DNA of 64,000 nucleotides from assembly GCA_019155205.2 (NCBI GenBank), contig JAHNZQ020000004.1:1034135-1098134 (forward strand), read 5' to 3'. Position 1 is the first letter of the stretch. Every line of letters starts with the position of its first letter. The notes beneath the pieces are model-generated. The model saw nothing but the letters and a program-made list of their open reading frames with translations. It searched no databases and was not told the origin of the DNA. Shown here one piece after another: positions 8,830 through 62,948 of the stretch. Source of the DNA: Gracilaria vermiculophylla. Its lineage: Eukaryota; Rhodophyta; Florideophyceae; Gracilariales; Gracilariaceae. A program made the translations under genes and the position numbers.

Positions 8830-9741
8830 CGAGGACTTTGAAGGATATCGCAATAGGATAGTTGAAATGCTATCCGCCTTTGAGGACATGTGGTCTGGTC
8901 GCCTCTGTCAGGTCAGCCTGGCAAGCACAGGATCCAGCTCAAACCGGATGCGAAACCAGTACATCAACTCCCGAGGAGGGCCAGACCCCATGCGCGCGAT
9001 TTTGAACGCGATGAGATCCATCGGATGCTGGAGAAGGGCGTTATCAAGCCTTCCAATTCCGAACGGGCCTCCCCGGAGGTGTTTATAAAAACGAAAGATG
9101 GCTCCCCAAGGTTCTGTATTGCTTACAGGCGCCTCAACGAGAGGATAGTACGAGATTCGTACCCGATACCGCGTATGGATGAATGCATCGAATCCTTTGG
9201 CGATGCGTCCGTTTTCTCCACGCTGGACGCCAACAGCGGCTACACGCAGATTGAGATGGACGACTCCGAGAAGGATAAGACAACGTTCACCTCGCACTGT
9301 GGGATCTTCAGATTCCGAAGGATACCATTTGGATTGAAGAATGCACCCGCTACGTTCCAACGAGCGGTGGATATTATCCTGTCAAAGGTGAAGTGGCAGT
9401 ACGCCTTGGTGTATATCGATGACGTCATCATATACTCTGGCAGCGTGGAGGAGCGCTTCATTCATGTGAAGCACGTCCTCCAACTCGTAATGAACGCTGG
9501 TCTTACCTTGAAGCTGGAGAAATGTTTCTTTTTCAAGTCGTCGGTGGACTACCTGGGGCACGTTGTACTTCCGGGCCGCCTACAGGTTTCTAGGAAAACT
9601 CAGGACGCCATCCAGGAAGCTCACCCTCCCACAAACCAGACGGAGCTCCGCTCCTTCTTAGGGTTGTGTAACGTATTCCGGAGGTTTGTACCGAATTTCT
9701 CCCGTATAGCGGCGCCGTTAAATCGCTTTTTGGAGAAATAA
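8830..9741 (+). pseudogene. G1 reverse transcriptase
   Basis: The best-preserved RT of the window, open for 283 codons from 8890. It contains HRIQLKPDAKPVHQ (primer-grip side), FCIAYRRLNERIVRDSYPIP, FSTLDANSGYTQIEM (first Asp), RFRRIPFGLKNAPATFQRA, and the polymerase box YIDDVI, then LGLCNVFRRFVPNFSRIAAPL at the connection. The polymerase residues are intact. A frameshift near 8930 separates it from its N-terminal part, and TAA at 9739-9741 cuts it from RNase H. Confidence 0.9.
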
Positions 9742-10461: not shown

Positions 10462-11643
10462 GTGGAAAGTTTGACATCGTCATTCGACGTCGAACGAGAC
10501 GGCGTGCTTGTACGCCACGCCCCCCTGGGTGGAGCTCTCCAAAAGGAGGTCCCGACGAAGCTACGGGCGAGAATGTTGTATCTCTTGCACCATCTTCGCC
10601 TCGCCGGGCACACCGGTGAATTTCGGATGTATTTCACAATGCGTAGGGAGTTCTATTGGCCGAACATGGCTAATGACGCCTTCCAAACGCGGGCGGATTG
10701 CTATTTTTTTGCCGCCGCTATGTGGAGTATACGGAAACACCGGACGCAGCTCACACTGTTCCCACCTTCAGGACCGTTGGAGTTTGTGGCCATAGAAATC
10801 TTGGGTCCTCTCCCAAAGACGGGGCGAGGGCACCGGTTTATCCTTGTGATCACGCATTGTTTTTAGAAGATTACGCGTGCCATGCCCCTCCGGGGCACCA
10901 CTGCCCCAGTGATTGCGGAAACCTTTCTGGAGCATTGGGTTTACCCCTACGGGATACCGTTGTACCTCTTTACGGACAATGGCAACCAGTTCGCGGCGAA
11001 AATCTTCAGCGCCGTCTCCGAAATGTTGCGAATGAAACAGTTGTTTACAACCGCCTATCACCCCCAGACAAACAAACAGGCGGAAAGGTTCAACAAGTCC
11101 ATCGCCTCGAGGCTGAAGCACTACGTCGCGGACCACCAGAAGGATTGGGACGCATAGGTGGGCCCCCTCACGTATGCATACAACCTGCAGGTGCACCGTT
11201 TCACGTGGACCGCTCTTTTCAATCTGGTGTTCTCGCGCATTCCGCTAAGTGCCGTCATTGCGGCGCGCGCCCCGGCACACCCACTGGATAGGCCACAGGC
11301 GCCAACAGCGTCGCAAGCCAAACGCTCCATGCTAAGGCGGTATGAGAACCCAATCTCCCTCGCAAAGAAGAGACTCAACGCCTCGCGGAGGAGCTACAAA
11401 CGGGACTTTGACCGAAAGGTTATGAAAGGCCCTCACGTGAAGGAAGGCGACGAAGTGTTTCTCGACAAACCCGGGGAAACATTCGACGAACCGCCGGACG
11501 TCACGCGCAAGTTAGCACTGACCATCTCAGGGCCCTACAAAGTCCTGGCCAGATATATAGATACTGTCGCCATTGAGGTGAACGGGCTCAGAGACGTCGT
11601 CTTCTGCGATAGGGTGACGAAAGTCCCGCCTCCCAGCGTCTAA
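10462..11643 (+). pseudogene. G1 integrase (broken)
   Basis: Inserts element cDNA into the genome. The N-terminal zinc-binding part (HHLRLAGHTGEF ... DCYFFAA) has the two His, but its second Cys is lost. The core begins LEFVAIEILGPL; the expected catalytic Asp (AID) reads Glu here. The other two acidic positions are present: FTDNGNQF (about 10970) and KQAERFNKS (about 11080). Stops at 10864-10866 and 11155-11157 split the core. The C-terminal part is open from 11158 to 11643 and contains the GPYKVLARYIDTVAIEV barrel. Confidence 0.8.
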
Positions 11644-11646
11644 GGA

Positions 11647-11979
11647 ATGCCGGCCATCTCACCTCATGGACAACGCGCGGAGATTCCTCATCCGACCACC
11701 TCAGGCACGACCACACCACGGGATACTGGGAACCACATCACTGCTCTCGGTGATCCATTACTGGAGGCTCCCGATGCCATCCTGGCCCCTGAAGGTGACA
11801 TCTTCTACGCGGTGGACCGTATCGCGTCCCATCGACAAAACCCTGCAGGAATACTGTACCGCGTCCGCTGGTATGGGTACACTTCGAAGGACGACACGGA
11901 AGACCCTCCGGAACATATCCCGGAGAACGTCTTTAGGCGATACCACGCCAATCTGGTGCGGAAACGCCTCTCCACATAG
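11647..11979 (+). pseudogene. Chromodomain at the end of G1 Pol
   Basis: After a variable linker the frame encodes YAVDRIASHRQNPAGILYRV, RWYGYTSKDDTEDPPEHIPE and NVFRRYH. That is a chromodomain with its aromatic residues and final helix, the module that targets chromovirus integration to marked chromatin. The stop is TAG at 11977-11979, and the integrase stop (TAA, 11641-11643) lies just ahead in the same frame. The same module recurs in G2 (28165-28312) and G4 (17517-17660). Confidence 0.85.
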
Positions 11980-12389
11980 GCGCTTCCGTTTAGGAAAAGG
12001 GGAGGGGGCCCCCAACCGGAGCTGTTTTTCGTCTCCGCCGCCTATCCCTTACTTGGAGTTATCTTTTTCGCCTCCAGGATGCTGTTGCTCCCTTTTTGCA
12101 TGGTCCCACGGTGGCACTTCCTGTCGTTGATCACGCGGGCACGGCCTATTCATAATGGAACTACCGTTCGTGGAGCTTCTGCTCCATCCAAAGGATCTTT
12201 TATTAGTCAGAGTCGTATCACATACACGTCACCGAAGCGTGTTGAATACTCCACTTCGAGGCGCGCTTTTGCCGTGAGAGCTTGGCTACCGAAGAACTCC
12301 GACAGACTTTCCTTGAAAGCCGCCATCGAGACTCGGTCTGTCCGGGCCTTGTGGAGCTCTAAGACCCAAGCACGCGCCTGGCGCAGAGC
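11980..12389. other. Spacer between G1 pol and the antisense ORF
   Basis: About 410 bases with no ORF of family character on either strand. The two genes converge here (pol on plus, antisense ORF on minus), so both transcripts should end in or near this stretch. Confidence 0.5.
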
Positions 12390-14104
12390 CTATACAGGAG
12401 AAGCCGGAGCAGGACGGCCTGTCACCAGACACGCCTGCACCAACTCTTGAATGGCAACCTCCAGAGCCTCCGATGTGACTCCTCTGGACGGTGCACCCGG
12501 TGCGTCCACCTCCGTTGACGGGGCAACAACCGCCACGGAAGGAGCCGCGGACGGCGGACCAGCTGGGACAGGGGCTCCCCGACGGGATTCCGCGGGTTCC
12601 GCAGTGGACGTCGGTAATGCCAAGGACGGAGTCGGTGACACCAGAGGTGATGTCGGTGTGGGAACTGGAACCCTTTGCAGGCGAGGCTGAGGAATAGGCG
12701 CAAGGACGCTCCGCAGTCGGGGTTGCACCACTGGGGCCGAAAGTGCCTGGACGAAAGCAATCTCGTCCTCTTCCATAGGAGACGCGGCGGCTACCACCGC
12801 AGGAGCACTCGGCACTGCGGCGGGCTGCGGAGTTATCACCTCAGGAGGTGCGCCCATATCCTGGGACGGAGCCGGTAACCGACGGGGCGCATCATACGCC
12901 AGGCTCTCCATCAAAGGGTTGTAGTCGGGCACTCGCAGCCATGGCATCTGAGAAACCCGAGAAGGCGCCAGACGGTGAAAGGCTGGGTATGCTCGCCCAT
13001 CATCGTCTCCATTCAGACTCCTCACAATAGGGTGGAACTTGTACTCGAAGTAGTCGTACCAGAGAAAATCCGGCGTGTTATTCCACGACATCTGGAGGTT
13101 GTAATCCAACAAATTCTCCGCCTCGGACTCACTCCATGCGGTGCCCTTAACAAGGTTTTGGATTCTAAAAAAGCGCAGGACCCGTATGATAGACGCCGGC
13201 AAGGGGAGCAAACGCTCAGCGGTCGGCTAATATGAAGAGTGCCAGTAGAGGGGGCCGTCGTGGCATCGGGTATAGGAGGTCACGCCTTCGTCCGCTGCTT
13301 GAAGATACGCCATCAGGGTGCCGACCGCGAACTCCGTCGAGGCGACCAGCATGACGAACCGCCCAAGGGAGTCATGGGGATCCAGGGCCTCGGAAGTATG
13401 ATACGCAAAGGTCATGGGCCTCGCCACGCAGAGGTGAAGGGATACCAGTGGTCCCTCCAGGAGTTATTCACCTTGAGGAAGTACTTCGGATGATGCCCGG
13501 AAGGCATATCATGGAATTCCGTGTTATACCATCCATAGAAGTATCCGAAAGCGATGCGTACTTGAGTCTCGTCCACAAGGTGCGTCCCCCATCGATTCCG
13601 ATTGAGCCAGTAGAGGCGATCGTATGGGGGATCGAAGAGCAACACCGCGAGGGCAGAGCGCCCATGGGCAATTCTTTCGGTTCGCCCCGCTCTCTGGTGC
13701 GAACTCTCCATGTGGAGCAGTACCTGGAGTCGCGCCTGGACCTCTCGTTCCTCAGCGCACCTCAGATACGGAGTATCGCAGTGTCCCACTGTGGTTGGAG
13801 CGTTGTCACACTGTACTGGAGTATGAAGCCAGTGAGTGCGATATGCATCTACGCGGTTCCGCTGCTGGTCCGTCCACGTAACCTCCGGTACGGCGCGGAA
13901 TCGCATCGCCTGAAGGTATGGGCCGAAGGTGTTAATGTAATCCTCCACGGGACACGGGAGACTCGCGCGCCTATCGTGAAGCGGGACAAACACCCGCACG
14001 GCGCGACGATCGAAATGCCCTCCTGGACTGAACAGTGCACCGGTCGAGGTGTGATACACCTCAGGATTCGAAGGCGATGTAGGCGCCGGAGTCGGAGAAG
14101 ACAT
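12390..14104 (-). pseudogene. Conserved antisense ORF of G1 element (aORF, copy 1)
   Basis: A reading frame of about 571 codons opposite to gag-pol, between pol and the 3' LTR. I do not recognise the protein family. The start ATG (14102-14104 on the plus strand) is chosen because two other copies (24065, 26371) start at the same place. Residues 1 to about 330 are rich in W, Y, H and charged residues (for example RLYWLNRNRWGTHL and FHDMPSGHHPKYFLKVN). The C-terminal half is Pro/Ala/Val-rich and low in complexity, with repeated PRL(R/Q) motifs. Breaks in this copy are one frameshift at about 13412-13427 and one TAG at 13227-13229. A conserved leader of 720 bp separates the ATG from the 3' LTR, which would have to supply an antisense promoter. 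Confidence 0.7.
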
Positions 14105-14811
14105 GCTGAAGGTGTACGAAGCTGGGCGGATGGCGACCGAACGCGCGGTAGGACCTGAGGAGAGAGATTTGACACCACTTGGGGAACGATTCGTAGTTAT
14201 ATGCACCACCGAGGAAAGAGCCGTGTCAAGCCGCCATCGTGGAATTCGAAGAGGACCTGGGCGACCGGAATCAGGCGAGTTATGGAGCACCATCCCGAGG
14301 CGCGCGTTCATATCCAACAGAGAACGACGGAGATGCGGACGAGAGAATTATGAGTCTGGCACCTTCACGGAGATTCAATGAGCGGACGCGAGCAAGCGAG
14401 TGTTTCCAAAAGAAGTAGTCTCGAAGGAGTCAGAGTGGCGAGTTCCTCCAGGGGGTCGGTATCCCCTCGGGACTGACCCACGCTCCGTCCGCGAAAGTTG
14501 CGCGCTTGCACCGCGCACGGTACGCCGGAAGACGGGGACACTCGCGTAGCCGAATGGCGCGGCAGCACAAACGAGTGACACCAAGAAGAAGCAGACGCAG
14601 CCGGGTTCAGGAAAAGCAGGGCCCAGAAACGCTGCAAGAGATGAAACACGAGCCCTCGGAATTACGCCGCGCGCGAGTATGGAGAAAGGGAGGAACGCCT
14701 GAAGAAGAGAACGTCCAAACCGTCGGAGGCCGCACTTGCCTCAGCACCGATAGGGGCCACCCCGTGGATCAAGAAATCGGAAGATGCACCTCGAGGACAT
14801 GGTACAATTTA
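14105..14811 (-). other. Leader of the antisense ORF
   Basis: The stretch between the antisense ATG and the 3' LTR. Parts are shared with the leaders of the other two copies, for example the block reading GCCATCGTGGAAT on the plus strand near 14230 and 24205. The frame is open upstream of the ATG to 14317 in this copy only, so it is probably untranslated. Confidence 0.45.
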
Positions 14812-14823
14812 GGAAAGGAGGTA
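14812..14823 (+). promoter_or_regulatory. Polypurine tract of the G1 element
   Basis: GGAAAGGAGGTA directly before the 3' LTR. The copy at 25768-25785 reads AGGAAAGGGGGTA in its own orientation and the one before 24806 is also purine-rich. In LTR retroelements this RNA primes plus-strand DNA synthesis. Confidence 0.7.
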
Positions 14824-15376
14824 AGTAGTACAGTGGCTCCTAAGGAAATAGTGTGGTTTGGCCTTATGGAATAATATTCCTAAGGAGGGCTCGTATTGTA
14901 TTAGCTGGGCCACGTGGTGCATAATGCCACCCGCGTGAGCTACAGTATCCCTAAGAGACGATAGAATTATTATTTATTTTAGTTAATTTATGCAGGTATT
15001 TAGTACAGTAGCGAGACCTGCCGAGACCGGCTCCCGGCTTGATACTTAATCTGCCGGTTGAGCTCCACCTCTGTGGAAGTAAAGACAAGCACCCTTGAGT
15101 CTTCATCTACTTTTCCGGTTGGATTCTCTCGTGGATTAACGCAGGTTTCTAAGCCGTCGATCCCCAGGTGGCATCATAGCAGCGCCTGTAGGAGCTTTGT
15201 CCCCCCAGTGAACCTCCTCCTCCGCTTGGTGTTTGCGGATCCCCTTTAAGAATTCCCCCGGCTCTCGACAGCGAATATCGGAGACCACCTTTAGGAACAC
15301 GCACCTTTGGAGTCAACAAAAACTCCTAACGGACGTTGTGCTTTACTACCTCGAAAGGAGTGTTGACAGTACCACA
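14824..15376 (+). mobile_element. 3' LTR of the G1 element
   Basis: A 553-bp LTR. It starts AGTAGTACAG (TG changed to AG compared with the solo copy at 52362) and ends CAGTACCACA, nearly the inverted complement of the start. It is full length compared with the 554-bp solo LTR. It shares the blocks GCTGGGCCACGTGGTGCATAA, CCGGCTTGATA and GGTTTCTAAGCCG with the other copies. What follows is a G4 fragment, not gag. Confidence 0.9.
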
Positions 15377-15833
15377 ACGAGGTCCTCTGCTTCGTTTCAA
15401 GAGAGATTAACCAGGAAGTTCCGCACAGGGCCTCTGATGAGGCTAGCTCCGGTGATATAGACGGGCTTCTCGCCTTATACAACTTCGAGCATGTCCCGCC
15501 GGAGGATTTTACCCGTGGGGGAATTTTACGCCATGCAGCACGGAGAAATCGATCCGAGAACAGTTTGGGGAACCATTATGCGTGGAACGACATGTCCGTC
15601 TTTGCGGTAGAGTAGACCTCTGCTATGAGGTGAGCGACACGGGCTACCTGGTCCAGAAGGTGGAGCGGGCCCAACAATCTGTGTTGTCCTACTCTTTCCG
15701 GGCTATTTACCTTCAACTGCCACACTATCCGAAGCTCTGTGGAATCTTGGGTCGGAGAAAACTTTATCTAACCCTTTGCAGTGACTTCTAATGGCCCACT
15801 AGGGACAGGGATTGCCAGGCCCTTGGGTGGTTC

Positions 15834-23840: not shown

Positions 23841-23999
23841 TCCGCCTGAAGATCCGCCGGAAGCGACAACTTCTGCCGACGGCACAAACGCCGCCATATA
23901 AGGAGTTTGCGGTCGGCGGAACAGTCGAAGCGGTAGGCTCCCGAGAGGATGTCGCTGGCACTGTCGCAGATAATGGAAACGACAACGGCGGAGTAGCGC

Positions 24000-24065
24000 A
24001 TCGGTGGAGTTGTAATACACATCAGGATAGGACGGAGGAGTAGAAGCCTGGGCTGGAAACGTCAT
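24000..24065 (-). pseudogene. Start of the antisense ORF (copy 2)
   Basis: Minus strand from the ATG at 24065 reads MTFPAQASTPPSYPDVYYNS and then TDALLR, aligned with MSSPTPAPTSPSNPEVYHTS of copy 1. Similarity fades after about 28 codons, where the deletion that also removed the end of pol begins. The stretch 23840-24000 between RT and this start is unassigned. The upstream leader (24066-24805) also matches copy 1. Confidence 0.65.
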
Positions 24066-24805
24066 TTTGAAGATTTACGTATTTGGAAGGACGCAGATAG
24101 AATTCTTCGTAGCACTAGAGGAGATCAAAAGAAGGCCACTGGAGAAGTGGCCCGCCGTTATCCACCCGACAGGGGAGAAAGCCATGTCAAAAGGCCATCG
24201 TGGAATACGCGGAGAAGACGGACAAGGAGCTGCGGGGGTATAAATGAGCACCATGGCAAGGAGCGAGTTTATATCTGACGGTAGCGCAGAAGAGAATAGT
24301 ATGAGTTAAGAGAACTCCACCGGGGATGCAAAAGCTGAAGCCACGACTTGAGATTTTCCCGGAAAGGATTCTCAACGGAGTTGAAGCGTCGTGCGCGGCG
24401 AAAGAATCGCCGGCACGGCACCGCGAGGAGAAATTGGCAAAAATCGCAGATCGGCCTATTCCCCGGCAGCCAATACAGAATGCCAACGCCGTACGAACGA
24501 CACTCGGATTACGCGGAAAATATTACCGCCGACTGGCCTTGTAGCACCAGTGAAGTACGCCAAAAAAGAGCAGATGAGGCTGGGTCAAGAACAGTTAGGG
24601 ACCCCAAAACGTGTCAAAGGAGATACGTGAACCCGCAGTCTGCCCGCCGCGCGAGGACTGAATAGTCCAAAGCAATCCCTTTTAATGTAGGATGTGTCGC
24701 ATTCTGGGAACCCCATAATGACTTCGCCGCCATTAGGGTTCCTTTAAGGATCAAAATGTAAGAAGATGCATCTTGAGGACGAGGTGGAATTCAAGAAAGA
24801 GGGTA

Positions 24806-25210
24806 TATAGTACAGTGGATCCTAAGGAGAAATTGTCCTTGAGGAATTATGGAATACAGATTTAGTTTCATTAATTGGTGCAGGTAATAATTACAGTAGT
24901 GAGACTTGTCGAGGCGGGCTCCCGGCACGGTACCTAAGTTTCCTTTCAAGCTCCTCCTCTGCGGGAAGTAAACCAAACACCTTTGAGTATTTTTTTAGTG
25001 TTTCCGTTCGGAGACTCTTGTTGAACGGCTTCAGGTTTCTAAGCCACCAGCCACCAGGTCGCATTATTGAAGCGTCTGTAGAAGCGTGGTCCACCCTGTG
25101 AACCCCCGTCTCAACTTCATGCCTACAAACCCTCTTTCAGGACTCCCGCGGCTCATGACCATGACTACCGGACACCATCTTTAAGAACTCGCGTCTTTTA
25201 AGTCACCCAA
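24806..25210 (+). mobile_element. 3' LTR of the deleted G1 element, truncated
   Basis: Starts TATAGTACAG after a purine-rich tract. It follows the family LTR with a deletion of some upstream blocks, to about AAGTCACCCAAAA, roughly 70 bases short of its end. The next base begins an LTR in the opposite direction. Confidence 0.8.
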
Positions 25211-25767
25211 AATATGGTAAGGTCAGCTTTCCTTTTGAGGTAGTAACGCACAACGTCCGTTAGAAGTTTTTGTTGACTCCATATGCGCGATCTCCTTATG
25301 GTCGTCTCCGATACTCGCTGTCATGATCCGGGGGAATTCTGAAAGAGTAACCACAAACACCAAGCGGAAAGAGAGGTTCGCTGGGAGGACGATGCTTCTA
25401 TAGGCGCTGCTTCGTGGCGACCTTGGGATTTGTGGCTTAGAAACCTGAGGAGGTTCGACAAGAGTTTCCAACCGCAAAAATAGATGTCGACTCCAGGGTA
25501 CTTAGAGTACTTCGCCAGAGCTGGAGTTCGACCGGCAGATTAAGTATCACGCCGCGAGCCCGCCTCGGCAGGTCTCACTATCGTAGTAATTACCTGCACG
25601 AATTGACTAAAAAATGAATCTAAATTCTACCTTTCCTCAGTGGTACTCTCGCGCACTGGGATCGAATTATGCACCAAGTGTCTCAGGTAATAAAATACGA
25701 GCCCTCCTTAGGAATATCCCGTCGTAATGCCACACCACCATATCACCTTAGGATCCACTGTACTACA
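25211..25767 (-). mobile_element. Inverted G1 LTR
   Basis: The reverse complement of the family LTR: TATGGTAAGGTCAGC at 25211 matches the complement of the LTR end, then AGGTAGTAACGCACAACGTC, and CCACTGTACTACA at 25755-25767 is the complement of the LTR start. It is 557 bp, full length. Its polypurine tract (plus strand TACCCCCTTTCCT) follows at 25768. Confidence 0.9.
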
Positions 25768-26370
25768 TACCCCCTTTCCTGAATTGCACCACGTGTTCAA
25801 GGTGCATCTTCCCATAACTTGGTCCGTATGCGGCTCCTGTCTTTACTGATGCTATAGCGGCCTTTGGCGATGTGATAAATCCTCTTCTTCGAGCCTTTCT
25901 TTGTATTTCCTTATCCCAGCACGGCGTACCGACCGCGAGCTCGTACATCTCTTTTGAAACGGTTCTGGGTCCCTAGCTCTTCTCAACGTATCCTGATTAC
26001 TCCTTCTTGGCGCAAATTGCTGGTGCGGGAGCGCCTGGCATGCTGACTCTCTCAAGAATACTTTCATGGACACGTCCACGCTGTCGCGTCCGCACGTTCA
26101 TCCTCACTGGACACACCACAATCATATTTTCCGCTTCTGCCCTGCCGTCGTTCCTCGTGTGCAATGAACTCGCTTCTTGCCATGGTGCGCCATACCTCGC
26201 CTGCCTCCCGTCGTTCGTGCTCTCCACGCATTCCACGATGGCATCTCGATGCGGCTCTCTCCCTGGTCGAGCGCATAACCGTGGGGCGCTCCACCAAGGG
26301 CGTCAGATCATTATCCACAGGTGCTACGATACATTAGGTTGCAATCTTTCCAGCTACATATAACTTCGAA
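25768..26370 (+). other. Leader of antisense ORF copy 3
   Basis: About 600 bases between the inverted LTR and the ORF. It shares blocks with the leader of copy 1 (for example CTCCACGCATTCCACGATGGC against AATTCCACGATGGCGGC in the sense of the ORF). The minus-strand ORFs here are shadows. Confidence 0.45.
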
Positions 26371-28005
26371 ATGACTTCCCCAGTCCACGCGCCTACGTCT
26401 CCATCCAATCTGGAGGTATATCACACCTCTACTCGTGCGCTATTCCGCCCAGGGAAGCACTTCGACCATCACGCCAACCGGATCTTTGTGTCTTTCCACT
26501 ACAGGTCCGTCAGTCTCCCGTGCCAAATGGAGGATTAAATCCACAATTCCTGACGGAACCTCCAGGCAATGAGGTTCCGTGCCTTATCGGAGGTTGCTTG
26601 GAATGACGAGAAGCGGAACCGGGTGGACGCTTTTCGCGCTCACTGGCTCCACACTTCGGTGCACTATGACAACGCTCTGGCCACGGTATGACACTGCAAT
26701 AATCCGTACCACAGGTGTGCCGAAGAGCGTGAGATCCAAACTCTGACACAACTATTCCTCCACAGAAAAAGTGCACACCAGCAAGCGGAGTGGTCCGGAA
26801 GCATCGCAGATGGACGCTCTGTTATTGCCAAGTTTCCCTTCGATCCCTTTCACTATGGCCTCTATTGGCTCAACCGCAACCGATAGGGAACTCACCTTAC
26901 GGATGAGACCCGAGTGCGGAACGCCATTGGATACTTTTGCGTGTGGCACAACACGGAAATCCATGAAATACCTTCCGGGCAGCGTCCGAAGTATGACCTA
27001 AAAGTGAACGACTCCTGCAGAGACCATTGGGTATATCCGCACCTCTGTGTGGCAACGCCCATTACCTTCGCGTCTCACACCTCGAAGGATCTAAATCCCC
27101 TTGACTCGTTAGGGCGTTTCGTCATGTTGATTGCCTCGGCGGAGTTCGCGGCCGGCAACCCAATGGCTTATCTCCATGCAACGGACGAAGGCGTCCCTTC
27201 CTATTCTCGGTGCTGCTGTGGTCGTTTCTTCTGAGATTCTTCATAATAGCCGACCACTGGACGTTTGCTCTCCATCTCGGCGACGATTATCCGGGTCCTG
27301 CGCTCCTTCGCCATTCAAAACCGTGTCTAGGGCACTGCATGGAACGAGTCCGAGGTGGAGATGCTACTAGGTTGCAATCAGCAAGTGGCATGGGACGATA
27401 CGCAGGGTTTGCTTTGGTATGGCTATGGCGGAGACAAGTTCCACCCCATTGTGAGGAGCCCCAATGGAGACGGTGACAGGCGAGCCTATCCAGCCTTTCC
27501 CCGTCCTCCACCTTCTTAAGTTCCTCAGGTGCCGAGGATCCATGTCCCGATTGCGATTCAGTTGGAGAGAGTCTGATAACTCACCCGCCTCTTTCGTTGT
27601 TGGCTTCATCACAGGACGTGGCTGCGATTTATGTGGTCAGAGTGTAGCCTCCAGCCTCGTTGCCGGGTCTTCCTGCAGTGGGAGCTACCGTGTCTCTTAC
27701 GGAAGACTATGAGACTACTCATGTATCAGCTGCGTCTGTTTCGGTAGTGCAACACCGACTGCGGAGTGTCCCTGCATCGGTTCTTCAGCGTCGCCTGAAA
27801 AGCGCTCCAGTTCCCGTACCGCCGTCACCTCTGGTGTCGTGCACTCCATCTTTAGCCCTGTCAATGTCCGTCGCGGTGCCTGCAGAATCCCCTCGGCAGC
27901 CCCCTGCTCCAGCCTGTCCCGCGTCTGCGACTCCTTCCTTGTCGAGTGTGGTTCCGTCGACGCAGGTTGGCGCTTCTGGCGCACTCTCGGGCGGGTTCTC
28001 GGGTA
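26371..28005 (+). pseudogene. Antisense ORF (copy 3)
   Basis: A plus-strand copy of the ORF at 12390-14104. It starts MTSPVHAPTSPSNLEVYHTS and keeps RFRALSEVAWNDEKRNRVDA, LYWLNRNR, FDPFHYGLY, HEIPSGQRPKYDLKVN, SLGRFVMLIASAEFA, KFHPIVRSPNGDGDRRAYPA and the Pro-rich tail (VQHRLRSVPASVLQRRLKS). About ten stops or frameshifts interrupt it. It ends about 25-30 codons early at 28005 (ASGALSGGF), where the 3' end of a G2 element begins on the other strand. Function unknown. Confidence 0.75.
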
Positions 28006-43871: not shown

Positions 43872-44878
43872 TACAGTGCGTTTCAAAAATATAGGACACT
43901 GAAAAAGCGCGCCAAAATATGGATTTTTGCCTACTTTAGCCACCCCCCTTCGGTAACACCGTCAAAAACGCGTTTCAAAAATATAGGACATTCCGTAGTA
44001 TCCCTCACTTATGGCGAGAGGAAGTCCACTTTCGCTTTCAGAACAGCACCTAATCCTTAAATATAAAGCAGAAGGACACAACGTGTTCAATATTGCTAAA
44101 AAACTCGGCCGTTCGCGTCATGTTGTAGCATCTTTTCTATCAAATCCGACAAAATATGGATTTAAACGTTCCCCTGGATGCCCGAAACTTCTGAAACCAG
44201 CTGATGAGAGGCGTATAAAGCGCGAATTATCGCGAGGAAGTGCGTCGTGCACAAAAATTGCAAAAGAATTGCCTAAAAAAGTCTCAAAATCAACAGTATG
44301 GCGAGCCATCAAACAAACAAATTTGTATCGATTCGTAAAGATGAAGAAAACATTCGTTTTGCAAGACCACCACAAAGCAAATCGCATTGCATGGTGTGCT
44401 CAGATGGCTTGCTGGAAAAATGAATGGAAAGATGTTATATTCTCAGATGAAAAGAAGTTCAATTTAGACGGACCAGATTGCTTTAAATATTATTGGCATG
44501 ATCTGAGAAAAGAAAAGAAGACTTTTACATCAAGGCATTCAGGTGGAACTTCTGTTATGGTGTGGGCTGGAATCTCTAAAAAAGGTACAACTGATATTGC
44601 TTTTATTGAAGGTAATATGAATTCGGAAGGTTATCAGAAGGTTCTATACAACAACTTGTTACCATTTGCATATTGCTTGCATGGAAATGAGTTTGTTTTT
44701 CAGCAAGATAACGCTGCGGTACACACTTATAACTACATGAAAGATTGGTTTTCTGAGCTTGGCATGAATGTCATGCAGTGGCCAGCGCGATCGCCGGATT
44801 TAAACCCTATTGAAAACGTCTGGGGTTTACTGGCAAGGATGGTTTATGGCCATGGCAGGCAGTTTAATACAGTTTTTG
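43872..44878 (+). mobile_element. Tc1 copy D, cut by an assembly gap
   Basis: The left end is TACAGTGCGTTTCAAAAATA at 43872, repeated at 43970 (GCGTTTCAAAAATATAGG). The transposase starts 139 bp in. The right end is not seen: the element runs into the 100-N gap, and the sequence after it has no terminal repeat where one is expected (about 45157 if the gap were 100 bp). Confidence 0.85.
44011..44878 (+). CDS. Tc1/mariner DD34E transposase, partial (cut by gap)
   Basis: The only uninterrupted transposase of this family: 289 codons before the gap. A nuclear enzyme that cuts the element at its ends and reinserts it at TA. The N-terminal helix-turn-helix pair is at residues 8-110 (LSEQHLILKYKAEGHNVFNI; KSTVWRAIKQ). 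Catalytic residues are visible: Asp in DVIFSDEKKF (about 147), Asp in VFQQDNAAVH, and Glu in NPIENVWG, with 34 residues between the last two (DD34E). The ATG at 44011 matches the starts of copies A and C. The C-terminal 50 or so residues are lost in the gap. The frame after the gap (44979-45060) does not resemble the expected SMPKR tail and should not be joined. Confidence 0.9.
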
Positions 44879-44978
44879 NNNNNNNNNNNNNNNNNNNNNN
44901 NNNNNNNNNNNNNNNNNNNNNNNNNNNNNNNNNNNNNNNNNNNNNNNNNNNNNNNNNNNNNNNNNNNNNNNNNNNNNN
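44879..44978. other. Assembly gap (100 N)
   Basis: Exactly 100 unknown bases, the usual placeholder for a gap of unknown size. It lies in the transposase gene, so the distance across it is not reliable. Confidence 0.98.
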
Positions 44979-45554
44979 CAAATCTCAAAAAACACTAGCC
45001 AATAGTAGACATATAAGAGCTTTGCAAACAATAATTTGCACTCATTTTTTCAAAAACTAATGAGAACCTTGTGTTACTTAGTTTTGTCTTTTTCATAACG
45101 GTACTTTGACAATATATTTTTTGGATTTTTGATTATTCCCGTCTTTGAGAACCTTGTATTTGAGACTAAACCCAGAAAAAAGGTTCTCACGTATGAGCAA
45201 AACTTCAATGTTGTACTTTACTTTAACAATAAGTTTTAACTTCAATGTTTAGAAAATATGAAATCTACATACATATAGAGATGCATACACATATCTTTAT
45301 TTTTGTAATGTGCGATAGATCTTCAAAGGACATCTCTTTCTTTAAAACAGACACACGTAGACGTTTAGCAAATCCTTATCAATGAAAAACATCCGAAGAG
45401 TAAAGAAAGCAATACATTCTACTACGTTCTATACCATGATTATCGTTCTTTTAAAAATAAGAACGAACATATCTACATATCTTTTGAAGAAAGAAAACAT
45501 TTCCAACTTCAACCATAACGCTCTCCCTAAAATGTATGTTTAGAATAATATGTA
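44979..45554. other. AT-rich region after the gap, with repeated 10-mer
   Basis: No gene seen. The word TGAGAACCTT occurs at 45061 and 45146 and as its inverse at 45180, so 45146-45189 can form a 10-bp perfect hairpin. Otherwise low-complexity AT-rich DNA. Confidence 0.4.
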
Positions 45555-46050
45555 TACTCTACGCATAAGATGATGGCTCACCTATCACTCTTGTACAACG
45601 AAAACATGCTTGAGAGCGAAACGAAAGGTTCGCGGAGTTTTGCTCTCACGCACACCAAAGTGCACACCTCAAAGTGTGGAGCCAGCCCAAAAATGTGAAG
45701 AAGGAGTACTATTGGTTTAAGACGGCACGGATGATGGCTCGCCCATCATTCTGGCCGTTGACAGGCATGCTTGAGAGCTTCAATGCTGTCTCGCCCGGCT
45801 TTGCTCTCAAGCACGCTGGGGTGCACCCCTCACATTGCGCGGCTAGCCCGCGCATGTGAGGGGTGTGTGGGATTGGTATAAGACGGCACAGATGATGGCT
45901 CGCCCATCATTCGTGCCGTTGGGAGACGTGCTTGAGAGCATAAAAGCCCGCTCGCCCGGCTTTGCTCTCCAGCACTCTGGGGTGCACCCTTTATGTAGTA
46001 TGGCCAGCATATGCATGTGAGAGGTGCGTGGATTGATGTCGAGGTTCTAA
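45555..46050. repeat. Three tandem copies of a 161-bp hairpin-rich unit
   Basis: The word GATGATGGCTC starts at 45569, 45730 and 45891, a period of exactly 161. In the middle unit three hairpins are visible: ATGATGG/CCATCAT (45731-45749), TGCTTGAGAGC/GCTCTCAAGCA (45768-45778 with 45803-45813), and CCCCTCACAT with an inner GCGCGG paired to CCGCGC and ATGTGAGGGG (45826-45863). The outer units keep the same arms with a few mismatches. Units are joined by ...TAAGACGGCAC.... Either a small satellite, a transposon subterminal array, or genes for a structured RNA; I cannot choose. Confidence 0.8.
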
Positions 46051-46169: not shown

Positions 46170-47393
46170 TCAGTCCGTGCACTTATGCTGGTCTTGGCAA
46201 CCATTTTCCATGTATTTGTTTTCAGCCGTTATTGTCTCTACATGTTGCAGGAAGTCCTGGACTGAAGCAAATCTGGGAAGGTCTGGTGGAGTACAGTCGT
46301 TGTATGCAGCGCAATAGTTGTAGTAAGCGTTAGATCCAGACATTTGAACCAGTTGCATTATCATTTCGTCCCTCAAACCCAAGGAACGATAAAGCTGAAC
46401 ACATCCCCGTTTCATTGAGTGTCCCGTATATGAGGAAAGGTCGCCCTCGCCGACTCCAACGTCGCTTAGTCGCTGTCTAAGATGATGCGTAAAGCTCTTG
46501 ACATGCCATGGTTTTGTTCGGTGGAGAATACTACACTCTGTGTTAACTCGAATGTCACAAAATAAATATCCACTTGATGCTCCTCGCTGCCCAAGCCATG
46601 AAAACAAGGCCAGAAATGGATCCAGGAGAATGGACATCCTTAGACGACTGTTACCCTCCCACTCTCGCAGCACATAATCACGTTGAACTGTAGAATTCTT
46701 GATCGATTCCTTCATTGTAAGTCTAACCTCGCCGGATCCCACGGTTACGTTCTCTAACCTTAGCTTAGATACTTCATCATACCGTAACCCCAAATGTAAT
46801 CCCAACACAAGGATCGCATTCAGTGCCATATCAAGTGGGGAAGGCCAATCACAAGCTCCAAACCAAAAGCGTTCGGCAATATCACATATATTGTACACAG
46901 TAATTGGTCGAGCTCTAACGCTTAAAGTTCCGCTTCTGGCTAGATGCACACGATGTGCTCTGCGGAGCCGTTGCACATCTGGGTTATGAATCAAAGGGTT
47001 TCCCTGCGCCAACCCGTCCCTGTCTACGTACCAAGATTGGCAGTGGCCATGTTTTGAGTACACAAGCCTCAATCCTTGAACCAATGCACCCATTGTGTTG
47101 TCTTTAAGGGCATTCTCCTTGCCAAATCCACAATAATCAGCCAGCAGATTTATGATTAGATCGGAGCTGTTGCTAGTGACCTTGACTGGATCTGGAGCAT
47201 TCTTCAAATGGGCGTACTGCTTAAGCACTTTAGCTGCCAAATTGACGTTGGCATCGGTTGCAGGACTATGTGCTGATGAGACGAGATCATGTCTGCTTCG
47301 AAGTGCAGAACCTGAAAACGATTTAGTACATGGTACGCGACGGCCTCTGACCTTTCGAAGGATCCTCGTCTCTTCTCTACTTCCAGTTTCCAT
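46170..47393 (-). CDS. Tyrosine recombinase, Crypton-like
   Basis: 407 codons, intact, starting at the ATG at 47393. Residues about 45-175 are the N-terminal SAM-like half (LAAKVLKQYAHLKN). The catalytic half shows Arg204 in GLHLGLRYDEVSKLRL, Lys228 in RLTMKESIK, His325 in YTGHSMKRG (with Lys/Arg at 328-329 where an Arg is expected) and several Tyr at 357-364 (NAYYNYCAAY) as nucleophile candidates. The order fits tyrosine recombinases of eukaryotic Crypton-type elements; no RT of a DIRS type is near. Divergent from a DNA-binding-like ORF whose start is 335 bp away. A host-domesticated role is possible since the frame is open. Confidence 0.75.
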   Translation of the reverse strand: METGSREETRILRKVRGRRVPCTKSFSGSALRSRHDLVSSAHSPATDANVNLAAKVLKQYAHLKNAPDPVKVTSNSSDLIINLLADYCGFGKENALKDNTMGALVQGLRLVYSKHGHCQSWYVDRDGLAQGNPLIHNPDVQRLRRAHRVHLARSGTLSVRARPITVYNICDIAERFWFGACDWPSPLDMALNAILVLGLHLGLRYDEVSKLRLENVTVGSGEVRLTMKESIKNSTVQRDYVLREWEGNSRLRMSILLDPFLALFSWLGQRGASSGYLFCDIRVNTECSILHRTKPWHVKSFTHHLRQRLSDVGVGEGDLSSYTGHSMKRGCVQLYRSLGLRDEMIMQLVQMSGSNAYYNYCAAYNDCTPPDLPRFASVQDFLQHVETITAENKYMENGCQDQHKCTD

Positions 47394-51639: not shown

Positions 51640-53335
51640 ATGGACAGCTCCGATGATGATATGCAAACGGCCATCGCCTTTATGGCTCAAATAACGGCGC
51701 AACAACACCATGTTTCCCAGCTGCTTGCGGCATCCAACACAGCCGCGCAAGCCTACCACCATCGCCAAGAAGATAATAAAAGCGACGAGGAAAAAAACTC
51801 TAAACAATTTCTCGGCCGAGGTTACACCCGGTACAACAAAAAAGGAAAATACGTAAGGCGTGAACCAACAGGTTTTTATGGCTTTATACGTTAGAAAGAT
51901 GTCGACATCAATCTTTGACAGAAGAGAACGCATCTCACAGCCTCTGATTTCGATGCTTTGCACACTATTGTAGAATTGAAACCCAGCAAACCATTCAACG
52001 TACTTGGACGGTTTGACGAAAATGGACAGAGTGTAGCACGGAGAAAAAAGTTTAACTCTTAGGAGCTGTTTTTCATATTATTCGATGTATTTGTGGGTTC
52101 CAACGAAGTGGGACAGGGTTTGGAGCATATGGCATTGGGGTACGGCTGTTCTATCGCAAGCCTTTCAGACTGTTTTCGGCATGCATTGTCTGCCGTGCAT
52201 AAGTCCCTGGATTCTATTTGTCCAAAACTTGTACGGTGGCTAAAAGAAGAGAAAGGACACGGATTGGAAGGTCTCATTATAGGTTTTCCGTCATGCATTT
52301 TCTGCGTTGATGGCAACAGAAGCAGACGATGGAGACCTAAACAGGACGAGGAGCAAAACAGTGTAGTACAGTGGCTCCTACGGAAATATGGTGGTTTGGC
52401 CTTAAGGCATAATATTCATAAGGAGGGTTCGTACTTTATTAGCTGGGCCACGTGGTGCATAATCTCGCCCGCGTGCGCTATAGTATCCTTGAAGTATGGT
52501 AGAATTTATTATTTATTTTAGATATTTTATGTCGGTAATTAGCACAGTAGTGCGACCTGCCGAGGCGGGCTCCCGGCTTGATATTTAATCTGCCGGTTGA
52601 GCTCCACCTCTGGGGAAGTAAAGACAAGCACCCTTGAGTCTTCTTCTACATTTTCCGGTTGGAGTCTCTTGTCTATTCACGCAGGTTTCTAAGCCGCCGA
52701 TCCTCAGGTCGCATCATAGCAGCGCCTGTAGGAGCATTGTCCGCCCAGTGAACCTCCTTCTCCGCTTGGTGTTTGCAGATCCCTTTCAGAATTCCCCCGG
52801 CTTGCGACAGCGGATACCGGAGACCACCTTTAGGAATACGCGCCTTTGGAGTCAACAAAAACTCGTAACGGACGTTGTGCTTTACTACCTCGACAGGAGG
52901 GCTGACAGTACCACAAAAAGGGCGTACGATGGATATAAGAAAGCACATTGCTATTCCTTGTTAGTGTTTTGCGACCTCTTTGGTCGCTTCATAATGGTCG
53001 AGATTTCGGACCACAGCGCAGAATCCGATCGTAATCTTTATATGGGTCCGGAAGTGTACCAAAACATAGCGCTCTATCTCTCAAGCGGGTAACATTGTAT
53101 GGCCGATATGGGGTTTGCAGGGGACGGAGAGCTATTTGTGCCTTAAAAACGCAATGAAAGCACATTGTGGTTCTACAGGGTGCAGCACAACAAGGAGATT
53201 CGCAAGCAGAGAATAGTGAACGAGTGGGGAACAGGCTTTATTAATAATCAGTATAGACTGTTACTTGTCAGGTGGCCATTCGAATCGGATCTGGTTCCGA
53301 TTGCTTATCGTACCGTCGTGACGGTAACAAATCAG
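51640..53335 (+). pseudogene. PIF/Harbinger transposase split by a solo LTR
   Basis: A DDE_Tnp_4-type transposase. Starts at ATG 51640 (MDSSDDDMQTAIAFMAQITA). One frame with three stops (51892, 51913, about 52060) leads through ELFFILFDVFVGSNEVGQGL and SLSDCFRHALSAVHKSLDSI to FPSCIFCVDGNRSRRWRPKQ, where DG is the first catalytic Asp motif. The LTR interrupts right after DEEQN. Beyond it: RAYDGYKKAHCYSLLVFCDL, GRFIMVEISDHSAESDR (second acidic site), then GFAGDGELFVP and RKQRIVNEWGTGFINNQYRL with the catalytic Glu. Dead copy, but nearly complete in order. Confidence 0.8.
52362..52915 (+). mobile_element. Solo G1 LTR inside a Harbinger transposase
   Basis: 554 bp, TGTAGTACAG to CAGTACCACA, the cleanest copy of the LTR and the one that defines the family ends. 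No internal sequence on either side. Flanks AACAG and AAAAG match at 4 of 5 positions, compatible with an aged 5-bp target duplication. A solo LTR forms by recombination between the two LTRs of a full insertion. Confidence 0.9.
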
Positions 53336-60871: not shown

Positions 60872-62948
60872 CGATGTCTATGCCGCAGTTGACCACGCAT
60901 TGAACGAAAAGATCTAGTGCTAAAACTCTTCAGCACAATTTTCACTCAATTGTTTTTCCGGTACGTACAACCTATATTTTTTCTACGATTGTACCCACAA
61001 TTGATTTGCTGAAACTCTCTATTGAAGCAATGGTGTCCCAAGTATTTTCTATTAATTAATCAGCCAGCTCACAATAAAAATTTGTGTGAACTTTTAACGC
61101 TTTTGATTCAATGTGCTGCTTTCTACAGTTTCCTTGCATTCAAAATGCAAATTGCTAAAACAGATCATTTGACTCGAAATCATAACTATTTCACTTCTAT
61201 TCTCCTTTCAAGATTTATACCGTCTTGTCGATATCCGTTATGGCAATCGATTATTGAACATTTTTTGTAAGAATTTTCACTAATCTTAGGAATTTCAACA
61301 TCAAATTCCGTTTTCTTAGAAATACTTCCCTCTCGTCTCCATCTCTCTTTGACAATAAAATTAACTGGATAAACCGTGCCTGAAATTGAAATAAAATACT
61401 TTCTGTCTCGATCAATCAACATTACGGCCATTATGTGACAACTAGGGACGCTTCTTTTTGAAACCATAGAAATAAAGTCGCCTCTGTTCATTAAAGTTAT
61501 TTTAGATAAATGTTTCATAGGAAATACCCGAGAAGCATTTCTGATTACTTTAGTAAAGCTCATCCCTTCTTCCATGAGTGCTTTAGCGGTTTTGAGAGAT
61601 GCAAGAAAACAATCAGCGCATACCAAACGATCTGATCCCAACCACGATTGTACTAAACGGAGTAGAGTAGCCGTTCCATGGGCATTATCGGAATCAAAAT
61701 CCGGTTCCGAATTATTCGCACCCATATTGAGTTCAATATTACGCATTATACCACTTCGTACACAACAAACAGATTTCATTTCCAGACCATTTTTGGGTTA
61801 TCTATCCAATGCTGTATAAAGTTGGAAGCCCCACATCAATCCAATGACCTCCTAATTTGTACCACCGTGACATTCCTTTGTCAACGCATAAAGCATGTAA
61901 TGGCGTGACAAAAGAACGGCGATGATTATTGACCGCCTTCACAAAATCGGCTATGAAGGAAAATCGTACGATTCCTTGCTCTTCAGTCACACCACTCCTA
62001 CAAAAACATTTGCAACTTTTAAGCAATTCGAATCTGTTTCGTGACATAGCAAGCCCAATATTAGGTTAAGGAATACATTTAGAAAAAGGCTCAATGCTCC
62101 AAAGATCTCGATCGCTAGAAAACTTAATACGCGTCGCTAAAATAAGAACTGCGAAAAATTTTAGCACCGTCACTCCTGATGTCCTCCGAGCACCTTTGCT
62201 TCCTTGCCGATTATCCGTTGTGCACACGGCAAATTGAAAATGATGCATAGGCAACATCCAAAAACAGATATCCAATGCAGGCATTCCTGATAGAGCGTGA
62301 TGTGGTGAGATAAAATCTCCGGCTGGGCCAGTATTTTTCCACTGATGCATTTGCATACAAAAATTCTGAGGCCTTAATATCGTACAGGTTTCCCATTTCC
62401 GATCATGAGCAATTGTTGATTGGCAGGTTGCATGCTGATTTCGATCATCCGGTTGCTCTTGCAACTTTTGCATATTCGGTGGTGTCGCAATACCGTCACC
62501 TTCAGCAGTTTCGATGCTTCTCAGGTCAAGCATATGATTTTGTTCTTCCGCAGCGTGCGAGGTCTTGTCAACAGCGGTCCCGAGTTGGACACTAAACCGA
62601 GGTAGAGTAACTTCTTTCTCCCGATTGAGTAAACTATAGTTCACCGTCACAAATATTAACATTTTGATTGTTGATTCTGCGAACATCAACACTTTGAACG
62701 ACTCCTCGAACCGTAGTAGACTTCCGCCAAGATCCGTAATAGCGTTTACATTCTGCGTCATTTGTAATCAGACGAGCGTGGCTGTTGATAGTTTTTCCAG
62801 CAGTTCTGTGAGAATATGTGGCCCATGCCATAATTGACGAATGTTGCTGACGGTTCTGATTTATGTAGCAGTTACAATTGACCCTCGGTTGTTGGGGACA
62901 CAGCTCAGTGCGGCTTGCGTCCATAAAATGGTAAGGATATCTCAACAA

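Follow-up and report, generated by a model that had tools for sequence, protein, structure and literature searches.

A selectively constrained antisense gene in a chromodomain Ty3/gypsy element of the red alga Gracilaria vermiculophylla, and amplified lineages that lack its larger part

A high-copy Ty3/gypsy retrotransposon of the red alga Gracilaria vermiculophylla carries a gene on the strand opposite to pol, between pol and the 3' long terminal repeat (LTR). The gene was studied from a window of 64 kb, the whole stretch of DNA that was analysed, which lies in contig C17 of a 44.84-Mb assembly in 27 contigs; all genome-wide counts below are drawn from that assembly. The element of the window lies on the plus strand in the order reverse transcriptase, integrase, chromodomain and 3' LTR, and the antisense frame is on the minus strand. 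We found that this frame coded for protein and was kept by strong purifying selection in those lineages that multiplied, that its place in the element is nearly fixed, and that each of two deletions removing its larger and best-conserved part occurs in many copies. It is likely that the gene, with a product of 627 to about 696 residues, encodes a trans-acting regulatory accessory factor of the element.

Selection was judged by comparing variants common to at least four copies, which are taken as inherited and hence as having passed through active elements, with variants seen once, which are mostly decay after insertion. Variants in two or three copies were kept apart. Codons with a gap, N or insertion, codons more than one base off the commonest and, in the main tests, columns with fewer than 15 copies were excluded; the minimum was 10 copies for the 20 longer loci and the pol control, 25 for the N-terminal extension and 8 for the junction-A tails, all of which are described below. 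In 30 copies (L001-L030), shared variants fell on antisense codon positions 1, 2 and 3 in 43, 35 and 168 cases (p=3e-30), whereas variants seen once were flat over the three positions (487/441/448, p=0.26). The shared variants comprised 39 nonsynonymous and 143 synonymous changes and no stops, against 771, 305 and 38 among variants seen once, which gives a ratio of ratios of 0.108 (hereafter, the ratio). By region the ratio was 0.048 in codons 1-221, 0.116 in codons 222-430, 0.34 in the Pro-rich part and 0.148 in the C-terminal part. In the leader between the gene and the LTR it was 0.81, not different from 1 (p=0.42). Thresholds of 3, 5, 6 and 8 copies gave ratios of 0.06-0.17, with one shared stop at 3 and none at 4, 5, 6 and 8. 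An earlier sequence-only reading of the window had claimed that the minus strand codes between pol and the 3' LTR and had proposed a codon-level selection test there; the ratio of 0.108 and the absence of shared stops at threshold 4, obtained over 30 genomic copies, bear the claim out.

As a positive control, the sense-strand end of pol (its last 457 codons) was scored in 20 longer loci (L031-L050), which are not independent because they are re-fetched longer versions of 20 of the 30 copies. Shared variants were 34/28/162 in the antisense gene and 29/22/70 in pol. At the protein level, conservation of the antisense gene in these 20 loci was comparable to that of this end of pol, and its constraint was no weaker.

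One copy, L011, is open for 708 codons from stop to stop and served as the reference ruler. Across its gene the antisense frame is the sole open one of six, and the plus-strand frames hold 17, 20 and 10 stops, so that none of them is open across the gene. The antisense frame might nevertheless be taken for the shadow of a plus-strand gene, since the window and several copies have an open plus-strand frame of 255-267 codons, and a second plus-strand frame has a low ratio of 0.17. However, the open frame has a ratio of 2.10 when scored across the gene and of 2.39 within its own limits, which is the opposite of constraint, and the second frame has 9 shared stops; its low ratio arises because it shares its third positions with the antisense gene. 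A plus-strand shadow gene was ruled out by these ratios and shared stops, and we give it next to no probability. The third-position bias on the minus strand thus belongs to a true element gene, as the earlier reading had held, and not to the shadow of another frame.

The gene is abundant and regularly placed. Searched against the genome, the window's unbroken first 230 codons gave 150 matches or more (from 520 first-look candidates); their identity is 67-82% with the query itself excluded. This search pooled with two further ones gave at least 228 places with matches to the gene, some of them fragments. For 55 of the best 150 reverse transcriptase matches, an antisense match is listed at a distance of up to 9 kb. 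It lies downstream on the opposite strand in 47 of these 55 (8 do not fit), and in 33 of the 47 at a distance of 4.33-4.56 kb. In the window, pol (ending at 11979) and the antisense gene stand tail to tail with about 245 bases between their ends. The outer end of the 3' LTR is sharp near 15378 in the alignment of 30 copies. The chromodomain (PF00385) lies at the C-terminus of the integrase, as is characteristic of a chromovirus; the class is judged here by the chromodomain.

Many elements lack part of the gene. The figures for integrase loci and deletion junctions refer to the matches listed, and proportions are rough. We scored 93 integrase loci: downstream of 53 an antisense gene is listed, and for the other 40 none is. 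Four of the 40 were read: L086 and L087 are without about 1.2 kb and L088 without about 1.0 kb of the gene, the loss covering in each case the N-terminal part and a good share of the central one; most of L085 is masked. Searches with natural junctions found junction A at at least 40 places and junction B at at least 8, each spanned by at least 20 bases on either side; 14 of the 40 loci without a listed gene carry junction A and three carry junction B. An antisense match (among the 150 best) lies within 2 kb of one of the 40 listed junction-A places and of none of the eight listed B places. The integrase match holds no stop in 4 of the 14 loci with junction A, in 1 of the 3 with junction B and in 5 of the 53 that bear the gene; pol is therefore not plainly dead in the deletion lineages. 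The full-length copy L032 has GCACCTGAG at both break sites of junction A, and at each site one base is different in L041. Loss, not gain, is the likely direction, because P0126, a homologous protein described below, has the central part. The N-terminal and tail frames are different in L086 and L088; in L087 they are the same, with stops between. In seven copies (L089-L095) followed in the N-terminal frame, a stop comes just past the junction in six and slightly further on in the seventh. Splicing as the source of the short elements was dismissed, no GT-AG being seen by eye at either junction. A separate locus, G000:C1:63262-78210, holds three integrase loci at a spacing of 6.24 kb; two equal-scoring antisense matches share this spacing and the third locus has junction A. 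We label it a tandem array or duplication.

Since the deletion lineages have multiplied, the deleted part looks dispensable in cis. The evidence fits a protein most of which an element does not have to encode on its own RNA, and such a protein would act in trans or serve something besides the jump. We suppose that an antisense transcript starts in the 3' LTR or in the leader of 0.5-0.7 kb, by analogy with plant elements that have antisense genes, and that the protein is translated from it. The product may then be an accessory factor with a regulatory role in trans, in the nucleus or at the level of expression, as has been proposed for the plant antisense open reading frames (ORFs), and elements without the gene would use protein made by other elements. 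The step on which it acts is a guess. Tentatively, the whole may even be a public-goods system, in which the antisense gene encodes a trans-acting helper or anti-silencing protein that autonomous elements keep strictly, and at least two pol-bearing 'cheater' lineages with the best-conserved region deleted, one of them between two copies of a 9-base repeat, multiply at its expense; this is possible, though less likely than not.

The multiplication of two different deletions of the same region would also fit self-restriction, in which the antisense protein would hold down the number of copies of its family, and lineages that lost it by deletion would have escaped and spread for that reason. The yeast element Ty1 has such a copy-number control factor. 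Self-restriction is unlikely here, however: the gene-bearing class is still the commoner one in the 93 integrase loci (53, compared with 17 that carry a known junction and 23 for which neither is listed, in the rough count of matches listed), and gene-bearing elements keep the gene under strong constraint, while a pure restrictor should vanish from spreading lineages.

Several points weigh against a trans-acting regulatory factor. Only 1 of the 30 copies is break-free over the whole gene, which bears on present-day activity. Among the 40 integrase loci without a listed gene, 23 are unexplained, and matches beyond those listed, masked stretches or other losses may account for them. The tail in 14 junction-A copies is still constrained (shared variants 9/5/24, ratio 0.29, p=0.0005), and four random sets of 14 full-length copies gave 0.22-0.27 for the same part; these sets were drawn from 20 copies, excluding copies with N and L011, L013, L021, L025 and L030, the last four of which are much broken. 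Junction-A lineages may therefore make a tail-only product, or may exchange sequence with full-length elements during reverse transcription; a 1-base deletion in the tail, common to 7 of the 14 copies, speaks against an intact tail there. The deletion elements might also borrow all their proteins in trans, and would then say little about the antisense gene. Finally, a nuclear or regulatory action would follow by analogy only, from the plant genes.

The gene proved longer than in the earlier reading, which had given it about 570 codons and ended it at a TAG (12390) that is present in 1 of 23 scored copies. Frame and constraint go 55 codons further, to the family stop (shared variants 2/0/11, ratio 0.13, p=0.0017). 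Beyond the family stop constraint was not seen (4/5/7, 3 shared stops, ratio 0.55, p=0.47). From the ATG at 14104, which was the start in that reading and is separated from the 3' LTR by a leader of about 720 bases, the family frame has 627 codons. Two upstream ATGs, 69 and 63 codons before it, are kept in 47 and 44 of 50 copies (the 30 and 20 new ones), and the ATG at 14104 itself in 45. This extension is open in frame in 41 of the 50 copies, against 0 and 2 copies for the two other frames. At threshold 5 its shared variants were 14 nonsynonymous and 17 synonymous, compared with 106 and 41 among those seen once (ratio 0.32, p=0.006); at threshold 4 they were 21 and 19 (ratio 0.43, p=0.023). 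The first part of the extension alone (L011 1312-1404) was not significant (p=0.13 and 0.57). Because the ATGs are conserved, the frame is open and weak constraint is present in the extension, translation probably starts upstream, giving 690-696 codons.

The commonest length change in the extension is of one codon (-3 in 13 copies), and a frameshift occurs in two. Such changes by whole codons stand against the idea that the antisense RNA matters and not the protein, as does the codon-level constraint without shared stops at threshold 4, which speaks against a sole function as RNA. An action through double-stranded RNA or promoter effects has been proposed for antisense transcripts of other elements (PMC7264820), and it is extremely improbable as the explanation here. 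In the aligned region L011 601-3663, which includes part of the LTR, no position has TATAAA, TATATA or TATTTA in at least 10 of the 30 copies; TATAA occurs at one position in 10 of 30, inside the extension. Where the leader ends and the LTR starts (L011 about 700-849, window about 14756-14905), one of the three phases has few or no shared variants (10/0/11, and 2/15/14 in the overlapping set of 20 copies), possibly by chance.

The protein has a part in which W, Y and H are frequent and a linker rich in Pro and Ala, and its C-terminal end is conserved. A folded half and a Pro-rich tail had been predicted from the sequence. The tail is supported by composition (31 Pro in 160 residues) and by the homologue P0126, but the folded half is putative, AlphaFold giving models of low confidence (mean pLDDT 31.7 and 45.6) for the window's own pieces. 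The search of profile and structure databases suggested in the same reading was run in sequence form and returned nothing convincing in Pfam, PHROGs or PDB: hmmscan at E<=10 gave 0 Pfam families for the full-length protein, two proteins had no match in PHROGs, and one Pfam match among 26 natural pieces (E 0.2) and PDB matches at E 1.2-1.5 were dismissed as chance. No relative of the antisense protein was found in viral contigs and genome contigs, and a first protein database search with it scored 7992 candidates, none at E<=0.01. With an alignment of the 26 natural pieces as query, 7995 candidates were scored and one had E<=1. This was P0126, of 241 residues (E 5.7e-29), which is 55% identical over 102 residues and then Pro-rich. 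Its best 150 matches in the genome of the window are 35-65% identical; since it matches only at this level, P0126 is most likely from another organism. As a control, the end of pol found 401 proteins at E<=1e-5, and the organism-named ones among the 120 listed are from Chondrus crispus (integrase-chromodomain 48-50% identical over 94-98% of the query) and Agarophyton chilense (40% over 98%). These named pol matches and the phycobilisome-linker genes described below, a kind of gene that glaucophytes have too, were the grounds for rejecting a fungal host, which genome size and the chromodomain had suggested; a red alga is favoured by pol. No relative of the antisense protein named from either species was among the 7992 and 7995 candidates scored.

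The lack of a relative among known element proteins could point to a captured host gene that the element carries along and whose constraint would date back to the host. We regard this as very improbable, since shared variants among element copies are still at a ratio of 0.11, the homologue P0126 most likely belongs to a different organism, and no host-only copy was seen among the matches listed. It is also quite improbable that the gene encodes a structural or envelope-like particle protein. Constraint at least equal to that of the last 457 codons of pol would suit such a protein, and so would the one moderately hydrophobic stretch of 19 residues (1.0-2.0 on the Kyte-Doolittle scale) found, by hydropathy only, in 16 natural pieces. 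However, 14 of these pieces have a charged residue in the middle of the stretch, the stretch that ranks next in hydrophobicity in the L011 protein is Pro-rich, and elements without the region multiply.

Antisense additional ORFs between pol and the 3' LTR are an already known structural class. In plants they are called aORF-3R and include Grande gene23 and those of RIRE2, Retand and PvRetro13; nuclear location and an antisense promoter have been reported, and antisense transcription for some of the elements (PMC7264820, PMC11963269). The gene of G. vermiculophylla resembles them in its place between pol and the 3' LTR, its opposite strand, its many copies and a conservation much like that of pol. 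Retand differs in being described there as a non-chromovirus whose antisense ORFs mostly have TRP28 (PF04195), and PvRetro13 in having an SMC domain (PMC7264820, PMC11963269). TRP28 was not found in our protein, either full-length (hmmscan, E<=10) or in the 26 natural pieces. What sets the present case apart from the plant aORF-3R is a chromodomain element, a red-algal host, the absence of a Pfam match for the full-length protein and amplified deletion lineages.

HBZ of human T-cell leukaemia virus (HTLV) is a small bZIP protein. The antisense protein here is unlike it, since the full-length product has no Pfam match and hence no bZIP domain was recognized. The two are alike in minus-strand coding, HBZ being a retroviral antisense gene (PMC11963269). 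The brtn gene of Boty-like retrotransposons in Botrytis (Zhao et al. 2011, cited in PMC8365987; also named in PMC7264820) is likewise an additional antisense gene, in a fungal LTR element; it is likened by description, not by sequence. The present protein has no sequence relation to known antisense ORF proteins that could be detected. Chromoviruses occur in red algae, and the word 'antisense' is absent from the text of the paper that states this (PMC3605345). A literature search, in which most subscription papers were beyond reach, found no title or abstract on an antisense gene in a red-algal element, and none on the protein family, host group and deletion lineages described here. Antisense genes of LTR elements have been described in plants and a fungus; here one is under clear codon-level selection in a red-algal chromodomain element. 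As full-length and deletion lineages exist in one genome, whether losing the antisense gene means loss or escape can be tested largely by sequence.

The window holds three copies of the gene (Table 1). Copy 1 aligns to L011 at 14347-13445 and 13463-12225 with 78-79% identity, and its natural open frames are 14347-13412 and 13226-12390. The one frameshift and one TAG ascribed to it earlier are there (a frame change near 13445-13463 and TAG 13227-13229), but a second TAG at 12390-12392 is a further break that had been mistaken for the end of the gene; the frame continues past it to a stop at 12207-12209. The other two copies were recognized correctly. Copy 2 is kept despite about ten breaks, namely ten stops and one frame change, and matches L011 at 64% over 26143-27498 and at 52% over 27549-28001. 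Copy 3 retains the first codons in a match of 98 codons at 42%. The start motif said to be shared was seen in both. Inverted LTR-like repeats lie at 24745-25828, between remnants of oppositely oriented elements.

Table 1. Positions in the window of the antisense gene copies and of features of the element family
Feature	Position	Strand	Remarks
Reverse transcriptase of the element	9085..9564	+	PF00078, E 8e-28
Integrase of the element	10867..11643	+	split over two frames in the window copy
C-terminal part of pol with chromodomain	11644..11979	+	PF00385, E 2e-6, 28.1 bits against a cut-off of 25.1
Antisense gene copy 1	12225..14104	-	from the ATG of the earlier reading to the last residue matched in L011
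Overlapping plus-strand open frame	13355..14158	+	267 codons; shadow frame without sign of constraint
Probable N-terminal extension	14105..14311	-	same frame; ATGs at 14311 and 14293; weaker constraint
Purine-rich stretch adjoining the LTR	14812..14822	+	possible polypurine tract, by sequence and position only
3' LTR	14824..15376	+	about 553 bases, ending in ..ACCACA; limits matched to those of the solo LTR (52362-52915)
Antisense gene copy 3	23988..24281	-	ATG 24065; match covers only the extension and about the first 26 codons
Antisense gene copy 2	26143..28001	+	ATG 26371; old and broken; its pol frames on the minus strand
Solo LTR of the same family	52362..52915	+	TG...CA; imperfect 5-base target repeat AACAG/AAAAG

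Other features were noticed. On the plus strand of the window, a Tc3-like transposase gene (44011-45060; PF13358, PF11427) precedes two 161-base repeats in tandem at 45630-45951, which are 73% alike. On the minus strand, a 407-codon frame (46170-47393) has a sub-threshold match to tyrosine recombinases (PF00589, E 0.004) and is, we assume, perhaps a Crypton-like element; a transposase fragment at 61186-61779 (PF13843, E 2e-9) is presumably of piggyBac type. Elsewhere in the genome, in which phycobilisome-linker genes have 11 matches, 8 of them on contigs of 1.9-6.0 Mb, frames of 915 and 881 residues at G000:C17:3115551-3117275, on a contig of 5.16 Mb, and G000:C20:15579-17279 have three phycobilisome-linker domains each, and are perhaps the nuclear and plastid copies of a core linker.
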